A DNA stretch of 21,020 nt, taken from assembly GCF_000341285.1 (NCBI RefSeq), contig NW_005178466.1, positions 124,204 through 145,223 on the forward strand. The letters are read 5' to 3'. Below the pieces are notes generated by a model, which worked only from the letters and a program-made list of their open reading frames with translations, ran no database searches and was not told the origin of the DNA. Source of the stretch: Galdieria sulphuraria. Its lineage: Eukaryota > Rhodophyta > Bangiophyceae > Galdieriales > Galdieriaceae. This document shows, piece by piece, positions 1-20,033 of this stretch. Both the position numbers and the translations under genes were made by a program. Numbering within the stretch: the first letter of the stretch is position 1; each line of letters starts with the position of its first letter.

Positions 1-466
1 CTCATATGAACTGGAATCTGCTTTGTAAGGAGTTAGAAGTTGCTCTCCTCCCAGTTAACAAGCACCAACTCGGCTAAGACGGGTTGTCTGTCGACTTGAA
101 AATTCTCCTATCAGAACCAACGCTGAGATTAATGTTTTCACAGCGTGTTACTTTGGGTGAGCCAGCAAATCGTACATAGAAATCAGTTCCTTGAGAAATA
201 GACTCTTGGTTAATAAACGAGTCAAGGTGACCCCAGAGAACCAATACAGAAAAAAACTAAACAACTGTCAACCGTCGACAGCTACGTTGGATTGCTCAAT
301 AGAACAGATACAAGAAAATTTCAACTTGACATTAATTTTTTCTGTATTTGAACAACTTCCTTTCAAATCCACAGTCTCTTCTGTTTAGTTCTCGAGACAA
401 ACCAAAAAGAGACGCAAGATCGTCACTCCTTGTCTTGGAATTTTCAGAGAGCCAAACAACAATGTT
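1..466. other. Left-edge interval, no supported gene
   Basis: Nothing here can be supported as a gene. Open frames are short and lack ATG starts or recognisable domains. A plus-strand frame entering from the left edge closes at 26-28 (ending in ELESAL) and could be the last codons of a gene outside the window, but seven or eight residues cannot show this. There is no oligo-T run directly after the tRNA-Met 3' end. The nearest run of T on the minus strand lies about 60 nt downstream, near 403-407. Confidence 0.4.
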
Positions 467-554
467 TGCCTTGGGTGAGGATCGAACTCACGACCTTAGG
501 ATTATGAGACCTACGCTTGCGGCTTTTCTATTCTACCGACTGAGCCACCAAGAC
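467..554 (-). tRNA. Elongator tRNA-Met (CAT) with a 15-nt intron in the D-arm
   Basis: On the minus strand the acceptor stem GTCTTGG pairs with CCAAGGC (one G-U), followed by discriminator A. The anticodon loop CTCATAA carries CAT in a stem like that of eukaryotic elongator tRNA-Met. The T arm is GTGAG-TTCGATC-CTCAC. A G1-C72 pair and a TTCG T loop argue against an initiator tRNA. The D arm starts normally (GCTC, loop AGTCGGTA) but its 3' strand GAGC is split: G-A is followed by 15 extra bases (about 531-517, or shifted one base) before G-C. Removing them restores four D-stem pairs and a normal 73-nt tRNA. Eukaryotic nuclear tRNA introns normally sit at 37/38; D-arm introns are known from the red alga Cyanidioschyzon merolae. 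There is no intron at 37/38 here. Confidence 0.9.
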
Positions 555-1307
555 AGTAAATATGTATAACAACAGAATCCAATAGACTAAGAATTCAGAT
601 GCTTTAATAAATTTTGAGGTTGTTTCGCCTTTTAGAGAATCCTCGGGATTTTGAGATACATTCTTTCTACAGAAAGAAGTTACAAGAATATAGCTTTCCA
701 ATCAAATCGACCTATGTCGAGAACTAGCTTGTATCATTTCCTGTGACAAAGAATAAATAGCAATTGTATCAAATAAGTATACTTTGAAGATGGAAGAACC
801 ATATTCTGTTTGCGAAAAGAAGCTAACCCAATAAAGTTACAATTAGAGCCATCTTGACCAATTCACAGCTCTGTGGGACTCATTAGAAAAATCGCTTTTT
901 TAAACTAGAAAAGAAACCAATAGTTGAAATGGAACATGCTAAAGAACAGACTTCTTTGGAATAGCTATGCATGAACCACGTTTGAGTTCTTCGTTCTCCT
1001 TCAGAGACATGGCACTCCTCGATTTCACGTGTCAAGTTACGCTCATGATGTTTCGGGGATGTCGTATACAACAAAAGGTTAAGGACGAGCGGAAGCTAAG
1101 TAACATCATCACATAATAAGCGTTACGAAAAAAATTGACTCTCATCACATAATCTTGCATGAACTAAATACAACAGCTTAGTAACTACTGCATTCGGTCT
1201 TTCGCATGCAACAAGCATAAAAACTTTTAGCGTTTCTCTTTCATAAAAGATTTCCCTTTAAAAGAACCTTACACAGGAAGAATCGAACAATCTTAAAAAA
1301 GCTGAGT
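555..1307. other. Intergenic interval with a weak U5-like stem-loop
   Basis: No protein-coding frame here looks real. One structured patch lies at 616-678 on the plus strand. An imperfect stem (GAGG at 616-619 with CCTC at 641-644) closes a loop containing TTTCGCCTTTTA. An Sm-like ATTTTGA follows, and then a perfect 7-bp hairpin (661-667 with 672-678, loop TACA). This order recalls the 3' half of U5 snRNA but is far too short and changes an invariant base (see findings). The rest is AT-rich with no repeats seen. Confidence 0.4.
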
Positions 1308-18635: not shown

Positions 18636-20033
18636 ATGACTAGAGGAAGTAGTTTGACATTTATACCGATAGCCTTGACGTTGAACAGAGAACGTAGCGA
18701 GGACTTGAAAGGGCACAGGAGAAGACGAAGACCGTCTTCACTCTTCCTTTCTCCGATATTCAAAGGTGAAATTTGTCGTTCGTGTAGAGTTCTTCATGGA
18801 GCAAGAAGTAATCTACAAGAAACAGAGAAGCGGCAGGAGAACTGCAAAGTCACCAGTGTTTCGGATACTCTGGACTGCCAACACTTTTCTTTCTGTGACG
18901 GTTGTTTGTTGGCACAAAGCTTAACCACTCCCCCTTGTTCTAAGAAAATTGAAGAATACTTTTGGAAACAGAAAGTACGAGTGTTGTTTCACTCTGATAC
19001 GCCAGTCCATGGTTGGCGCTCTGTTGCACGACTGGCTGTAAGACGAGATGACAAGGGTAGAACTAGAATAGGTTTGTTCAAGGAAGACTCCCACAGTGTG
19101 GTTGAGATTCCTCACTGCCGGGTGCATCATCCTCTGATAAACGGTGAAATGGAAACAGTGAAAAAGGCAATGAAGGAGACAGGTGTCAGTGGCTATGATG
19201 AAGATAGAGAAGAAGGGCAGTTGAGATATATTCAGATGTCAGTAGAACACCGTTCACAAACTTTGCAAGCAGCTTTTGTTTGGCATGCGCCTAGACTAAA
19301 GGAGGCAGGTCCGTTATGTAAGCGCTTCATGCGCAGTCTGGAAAGATCAAGTTCGAAGTTTCATTCGCTTTGGTTGAATTTTAACACTTCTCGTGGAAAT
19401 AGAATTTTCAATTTTGATCAGTCAAGCTGGCTTTTGTACAGTGGTAAGCGCTATGCGTTAGAATCTATCGGTGGTGTCAACATATATTTTCCCCCTTATG
19501 TTTTTCGTCAGTCAAATATAGAAATGCTAAAAGAACTTGTTAAAGAAATCAGCAAATATATCGAACCAAGAACAAAGGTGCTTGAATTCTATGCAGGAGT
19601 CGGTGCCATTGGTATTCCAGTGGCATATTTATCCGGTGCGGAGCTTGTTGGAGCTTGTGAGCTAAATGGGCTTTCCAAAGAGGCTTACTTGAAGGCTACA
19701 TGGGCTTTGACTCCTTCGCAAAGGCACAATGCTGAATTTTTTATAGGAACTGCAGCCGCTCATCGTGACAAGCTCAGATTCTCTGAAGTCATTATTGTCG
19801 ACCCACCTCGGAGTGGAATGGATTATGCCTTGGCTGCACGTTTAAGTTCAGTTAGGGACAATGATATTATTAAACGAATCATTTACGTGAGCTGCAAGTT
19901 TGAAAGTCTCCAACGTGACCTAGAAATCATTCAGCGTAACGGTAAATGGACACTTCGAAAGGCAGAGGCATTTCTGTTCTTTCCAGGAACTGATCACTGG
20001 GAGCTATTATGCGTATTAGACCGTAAAGTCTAG
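18636..20033 (+). CDS. Iron-sulfur RNA uracil-C5 methyltransferase, TrmA/RumA family
   Basis: Single exon, 465 residues. It transfers a methyl group from S-adenosylmethionine to C5 of uridine in tRNA or rRNA. Visible features, in order: a basic, Ser-rich N-terminus (1-70) that may be an organelle targeting sequence; a 4Fe-4S cluster set C81-x5-C87-x2-C90 with the fourth ligand C161 (IPHCRVHHP); the SAM loop LEFYAGVGAIGIP from 316; DPPRSG with D389; the nucleophile C420 in YVSCKFESLQRD; and the general base E456 in TDHWELL. The usual Asn after the catalytic Cys is Lys here. There is no N-terminal TRAM domain, unlike RumA/RlmD. Substrate (tRNA U54 or an rRNA site) and compartment (plastid or mitochondrion) cannot be settled from sequence alone. 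Confidence 0.9.
   Translation: MTRGSSLTFIPIALTLNRERSEDLKGHRRRRRPSSLFLSPIFKGEICRSCRVLHGARSNLQETEKRQENCKVTSVSDTLDCQHFSFCDGCLLAQSLTTPPCSKKIEEYFWKQKVRVLFHSDTPVHGWRSVARLAVRRDDKGRTRIGLFKEDSHSVVEIPHCRVHHPLINGEMETVKKAMKETGVSGYDEDREEGQLRYIQMSVEHRSQTLQAAFVWHAPRLKEAGPLCKRFMRSLERSSSKFHSLWLNFNTSRGNRIFNFDQSSWLLYSGKRYALESIGGVNIYFPPYVFRQSNIEMLKELVKEISKYIEPRTKVLEFYAGVGAIGIPVAYLSGAELVGACELNGLSKEAYLKATWALTPSQRHNAEFFIGTAAAHRDKLRFSEVIIVDPPRSGMDYALAARLSSVRDNDIIKRIIYVSCKFESLQRDLEIIQRNGKWTLRKAEAFLFFPGTDHWELLCVLDRKV

Follow-up and report, generated by a model that had tools for sequence, protein, structure and literature searches.

Structure of an interrupted tRNA-Met gene

The 21,020-nucleotide window, that is, the whole stretch of DNA analysed, contains on its minus strand an elongator tRNA-Met(CAU) gene whose 88-nt precursor part spans positions 467–554. 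The Rfam model RF00005 matched this part with 49.6 bits (gathering score 29), all 71 model positions being matched and the surplus bases being placed in the D-arm. An own-genome tRNA model, derived from 22 of the genome's intronless tRNA genes, Met genes excluded, scored it at 61.9 bits. ARAGORN left the gene unreported, both in its bacterial setting and with the standard code and introns of up to 300 nt. The anticodon CAU (504–506), evident from the sequence and the Rfam match, lies within the loop CUCAUAA, and the whole anticodon stem-loop, UAGGU-CUCAUAA-UCCUA with its U31·U39 apposition, is as in other eukaryotic elongator tRNA-Met.

Taking 15 nt out of the gene leaves 73 nt, with a D stem of 4 bp (GCUC/GAGC) and a D loop of 8 nt; the acceptor, D, anticodon (except U31·U39) and T stems of this product are all paired. 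The junctions were located with a script that admitted only a 3-nt bulge, a 4-bp helix and a 3-nt bulge (a bulge-helix-bulge, BHB) together with a normal D stem. Within the range scanned, there was one solution, the 15-nt intron AAUAGAAAAGCCGCA between tRNA positions 22 and 23, read on the minus strand from window position 532 to 518. Exon 1 (533–554) thus comprises positions 1–22, with the acceptor 5′ strand and the A-box region, and exon 2 (467–517), delimited by the Rfam match and the cut scan, comprises positions 23–73. The first-pass annotation, which had recognised an elongator tRNA-Met with a 15-nt D-arm intron and a 73-nt product, was borne out by the Rfam score and the restored D stem; its intron at 531–517 is a one-base slide of ours (registers 22 and 23) that leaves an identical mature sequence. 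An insert at 22/23 rules out a canonical eukaryotic tRNA intron, which lies at 37/38. The intron falls past the A-box region (positions 8–19), and the B box is intact. The first downstream T5 run, a candidate RNA polymerase III terminator, is at 404–408 on the same strand, ~60 nt past the tRNA.

The central helix of the BHB pairs the exon strand CGGU (535–538; tRNA positions 17–20) with the intron strand GCCG (520–523). It is flanked by the 5′ bulge AG^A (532–534) and the 3′ bulge CA^A (517–519), in each of which the predicted cut follows the second base. The precursor therefore has the BHB that had been anticipated at both ends of the intron, in textbook 3-4-3 geometry, which places the insert among BHB-type introns. 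When the 88-nt precursor is folded to minimum energy, the predicted helix (17–20 with 32–35) forms; the stability of the whole precursor is unremarkable (z = −1.29; 22 of 200 shuffles were as good). A fraction of 0.017 of shuffled inserts match the BHB quality of this gene, which is only mild evidence when taken alone, and the weight of the BHB case therefore rests on the other genes described below.

A second elongator tRNA-Met gene, at C44:110501–110589, has a 16-nt insert and differs from the window copy by one exon base. The two genes lie in a duplicated block (window 1–560 versus C44:110495–111055) in which 553 of 561 aligned positions are identical; on the tRNA side, the block breaks off a few bases beyond the 5′ end of the gene. 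The eight differences comprise two substitutions in the 3′ flank, three substitutions and one gap in the intron, one change in exon 1 (position 17) and one just upstream of the gene. The ~460-base 3′ flank thus differs at two positions, against three substitutions and a gap in the 15-nt intron, a pattern that would be explained by an older duplication after which exon 2 and the 3′ flank were homogenised. All stems are intact in both copies, and the helix is kept, as CGGU:GCCG in the window and UGGU:GCCA in C44, so that C17-G in one copy faces U17-A in the other, the change having gone in either direction. The first T5 run is ~60 nt past the gene in both copies. Both also have the heptamer CCAAGAC (window 432–438, minus strand) ~30 nt downstream of the gene, a perfect complement, perhaps by chance, of the acceptor 5′ strand GUCUUGG.

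Off-centre introns across the genome

PDB entries 1bwv (1117.6 bits) and 4f0h (1100.2 bits), which we take to be those of Galdieria partita and G. sulphuraria, are the nearest matches of the assembly's RuBisCO large subunit, followed by 8bdb (955.7 bits), in agreement with the Galdieria-type genome surmised from the window. The assembly searched comprises 12.05 Mb in 102 contigs. RF00005 gave 64 hits up to an E-value of 10. Contig C36, which we take as the plastid contig because it carries rbcL, accounts for 20 of these and has a tRNA set of its own. That set includes a class II tRNA with a long variable arm (C36:150200–150285) to which ARAGORN nevertheless assigns a CAU anticodon, an odd combination. 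A B-box pattern gave 90 matches, versus 55 for the reversed pattern; 14 were on the plastid contig and 30 on known genes, and four of the remaining 46 were tRNA genes by the own-genome model. Together with the 44 RF00005 hits off C36, these bring the tally to 48 tRNA genes, a lower bound for the contigs other than C36, mitochondrial contigs not being set apart.

Eleven of the 48 genes, with eight anticodons among them, have an insert outside 37/38, nine in the D-arm and two in the T-loop, of 12 to 20 nt. The site 22/23 is used by the two elongator Met genes, Gln-UUG (C9:94010–94097, minus strand), Gln-CUG (C4:69556–69645, plus) and Arg-UCU (C13:30859–30945, plus). Val-UAC (C30:112096–112181, plus) is interrupted at 20a/21, two Glu-UUC genes (C7:242342–242431, plus, and C7:266220–266309, minus) at 14/15, Gly-GCC (C2:112906–112996, minus) at 15/16, and two Lys-UUU genes (C45:104903–104988 and C9:152738–152829, both plus) at 59/60 in the T-loop. 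The only 37/38 intron found is in Arg-UCG, which brings the intron-bearing genes to 12 of 48, and a second intron was seen in none of the 12.

No intact gene for any affected anticodon was found among the 48 off the plastid contig. Elongator Met, Gln-UUG, Lys-UUU, Glu-UUC and Arg-UCU should be the sole decoders of their codons. Since several of the affected tRNAs should thus be the only cytosolic readers of these codons, the inserts must presumably be removed if translation is normal. Further pattern searches of the genome gave no matches for initiator Met or for Tyr, and a Met anticodon-arm pattern (two mismatches to the known genes) gave no tRNA in the seven of 21 matches run through the tRNA model. 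By RF00005 and the pattern searches combined, no gene was found off the plastid contig for initiator Met, Tyr, Pro-AGG/UGG, Ser-GCU/UGA or Leu-CAA; these genes may be multiply interrupted or permuted, as in Cyanidioschyzon merolae, or may have been missed by the searches.

The arrangement of a 3-nt bulge, a 4-bp helix and a 3-nt bulge, in which each cut is two unpaired bases away from the helix, fits 11 of the 12 intron-bearing genes, the exception being Lys-UUU on C9 with three of the four pairs. Each of the other 48 spacings, given equal register freedom and evaluated on the same mature sequences, yields four pairs in at most three of the 12 genes; where a junction had two possible registers, the BHB was used to choose between them, a procedure that favours the BHB result. 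When the inserts were shuffled, per-gene probabilities ranged from 0.017 to 0.225 (0.017 and 0.086 for the two Met genes), with a product of 10^-15.3 over the 12 genes and of ~10^-9.7 if only the weaker value per family is used (eight families: Met, Gln, Val, Arg-UCU, Glu, Gly, Lys and Arg-UCG).

Some junctions involved a choice. The Gln-UUG junction has 11 formal solutions, of which the one with an 8-nt D loop was chosen, partly for its likeness to the human tRNA. The Gln-CUG, Glu, Gly and Lys junctions were placed by hand, outside the cut scan, and a C12·A23 mismatch remains in the D stem of the Gly-GCC product. Nine of the 12 precursors were folded freely (the set left out the second Glu gene, Lys on C9 and Arg-UCG), and the full helix was present in the minimum-energy fold of six of them. 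The C44 Met precursor formed three of the four helix pairs, and the helix was missing for Glu, whose slice began 2 nt early, and for Gly. Ten of the 11 off-centre introns end in CA at their 3′ end, a count that includes non-independent paralogue pairs; we know of no source that names a terminal CA as a signal.

Paralogue pairs other than Met were compared as well. In the Gln pair, GGUU pairs with GACC in one copy and AACC in the other, a one-sided change from U·G to U-A. The Glu pair shares GACU-CA in inserts that are otherwise dissimilar, and in the Lys pair one base pair is lost. Paired changes that keep the helix between copies are thus present, but the events are very few.

Splicing enzymes and comparison with other systems

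The genome that carries these BHB-type introns encodes a tRNA splicing endonuclease. Two genes match PF01974, one with the Sen34 chain 6z9u_A as its best match (2.2e-16) and the other with the Sen2 chain 8iss_B (1.9e-12), both of which we take to be human. A Sen15 homologue at C62:14658–15002 is interrupted by a short GU-AG intron. Against PF09631, for which the cut-off is 22, its spliced prediction scores 36 bits, and its best match among Sen15 chains is at 4.6e-4; exon 1 by itself has no match in the PDB set and 13 bits in Pfam, and the spliced prediction alone is convincing. The Sen54 candidate is weak: it reaches 24.2 bits with PF12928 (cut-off 24), a neighbouring ORF resembles Sen54 chains (E = 0.5), and the Sen54 ORF alone scores 13.4 bits with PF01974, under its cut-off. 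The ligase RtcB is encoded by a full-length ORF (549.3 bits).

The closest known system is that of C. merolae, also a cyanidiophyte red alga. The first-pass annotation had pointed to its D-arm introns as a precedent, and these are indeed described for its nuclear tRNA genes in three papers, together with introns in the T-arm, BHBs at the junctions and a candidate Sen2/Sen34 enzyme (PMC4090602, PMC3978253, PMC9602550); our comparison of positions rests on reviews. The two genomes differ in several respects. According to PMC9602550, introns occur in more than 62% of C. merolae nuclear tRNA genes, compared with 12 of the 48 found here; at least 12 C. merolae genes have several introns, compared with none of our 12; and tRNA-Ile(UAU) is interrupted at 12/13, 37/38 and 53/54, whereas the tRNA-Ile(UAU) here has no intron. 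Permuted genes are present in C. merolae according to PMC3978253, whereas none was found here in a partial search. Sen15 is reportedly absent from C. merolae, and reviews propose a reduced enzyme or a bare Sen2-Sen34 pair for its scattered BHBs (PMC3978253, PMC4090602, PMC6379350), whereas a Sen15 homologue is present here. If this homologue is part of the enzyme, such introns do not depend on Sen15 being absent.

The nucleomorph of Guillardia theta is of red-algal origin. It resembles the present case in its insertions of 3–24 nt at non-canonical positions, including the D and T arms, and its elongator tRNA-Met is interrupted by three introns (PMC4090602). According to PMC3978253, many of the nucleomorph introns lack a defined BHB, in contrast to the strict geometry of 11 of the 12 genes here. 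The same source reports for Crenarchaeota that BHB introns are scattered along tRNA genes, with the D-arm and T-arm among their sites; the genes here, however, are eukaryotic, and the endonuclease genes resemble the four eukaryotic subunits. In the literature covered on Galdieria tRNA introns and permuted tRNAs, beyond which most subscription papers lie, we found no report of such introns.

As a kind, D-arm tRNA introns have precedents in C. merolae and the G. theta nucleomorph. The present case adds a Galdieria-like host, a BHB that is strict and uniform, a double change between the Met copies and an accompanying Sen15 homologue. The first-pass annotation had anticipated neither this homologue nor that the Met gene would be one of at least 11 such genes.

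Proposed splicing route and alternatives

We conclude that 467–554 is very probably a functional nuclear gene for elongator tRNA-Met, interrupted at 22/23 in the D-arm by a 15-nt BHB intron. From the sequence, we infer its transcription, cutting and joining as well as the identity of the ligase. Pairing of exon bases 17–20 with four bases of the intron would leave each junction of the precursor in a 3-nt bulge. Both bulges would then be cut after their second base by the tRNA splicing endonuclease, with Sen2 and Sen34 as catalytic subunits and Sen54 and Sen15 as candidate partners. A normal 73-nt tRNA would result once a ligase, for which the encoded RtcB is the simplest assumption, had joined 22 to 23.

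Three alternatives were weighed against this reading. The Met copies could be pseudogenes in decay, or tRNA-like repeats, that took up an insertion by chance, with the work done by an intact gene; we regard this as very unlikely. Both of the elongator Met copies found carry the insert with the stems kept, seven further anticodons are in the same situation with no intact copy among 48 genes, and one BHB geometry recurs in 11 of 12 genes, even though the assembly may be incomplete and an intact Met copy could have been missed, as some isotypes were not found by the searches. Where other eukaryotes have a short D-arm insertion in one of many synonymous genes, that gene is supposed to be a pseudogene (PMC4090602). 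At the Met loci, by comparison, the sole other elongator copy in a search that did not cover every gene also has a D-arm insert, and with intact stems in both copies the locus does not classify as a tRNA pseudogene.

More improbable still is a functional tRNA that retains the insert and so has an enlarged D-arm. With the insert in place, the D stem is split between 22 and 23, and the 4-bp stem forms only once the insert is removed; the insert varies in sequence and length between the Met copies, whose exons differ by one base; and the inserts of the other genes, at 14/15, 15/16, 20a/21, 22/23 and 59/60, nearly all have the same BHB geometry.

Permuted genes were sought with a model consisting of tRNA positions 38–73 followed by 1–37, run on 49 and then 28 sources rather than genome-wide and without a positive control. 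No permuted tRNA gene was found in this partial search, which is weak evidence of absence: all five hits and then all 30 overlap tRNA genes found in normal order by the ordinary model or Rfam. It is scarcely credible that the Met locus belongs to a C. merolae-like rearranged or permuted arrangement of which the D-arm insert is a by-product, since both halves are in normal order and the ordinary model fits far better (61.9 bits, versus a weak 21.9-bit permuted-model hit), whatever is made of the flanking complement to GUCUUGG in both copies and of the C. merolae permutation junctions at 20/21, 37/38, 50/51 and 59/60 (PMC3978253).

Descriptions of the eukaryotic splicing endonuclease liken it to a ruler that locates 37/38. 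The same signal is found in the D-arm or T-loop of at least ten further genes, so that recognition of the local BHB, and not only measurement to 37/38, must be part of how the enzyme works here. We tentatively suggest, as a reading that falls a little short of probable, that a full four-subunit, Sen15-containing endonuclease removes the D-arm and T-loop introns here by reading the BHB alone. Were this true, the loss of Sen15 in C. merolae would not be what permits such introns. The introns at 20a/21 and 59/60, which lie at or adjoining the C. merolae junctions 20/21 and 59/60, would in addition be living examples of the intron-first stage proposed for permuted genes. C. merolae broke the 37/38 rule, and the reviews offer its reduced, Sen15-less enzyme as one explanation (PMC6379350, PMC3978253). 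A second, Galdieria-like genome that combines strict, scattered BHB introns with a Sen15 homologue provides a direct test of that explanation. The Glu and Gly introns lie within the A-box region and the Lys introns within the B-box region, a placement that would suit transcription from an upstream promoter as discussed for permuted genes in PMC3978253.

The introns also matter for annotation. ARAGORN mishandled all seven off-centre genes that it was given: it missed four (both Met genes, Arg-UCU and one Glu), called Gln-UUG a Trp gene, and reported wrong ends for Val-UAC and one Lys-UUU. The non-canonical intron search of tRNAscan-SE 2.0 is described for archaea (PMC8450103).

Elsewhere in the window, eight of the ten ORFs of at least 150 amino acids were searched against Pfam, and the matches above cut-off were TPR, TRAF zinc finger, ABC transporter, Rubisco-LSMT substrate-binding and tRNA uracil-5-methyltransferase. 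The last of these, a tRNA (uracil-5-)-methyltransferase ORF at 18636–20033 on the plus strand, places a tRNA-modification enzyme in the same window as the tRNA-Met gene.
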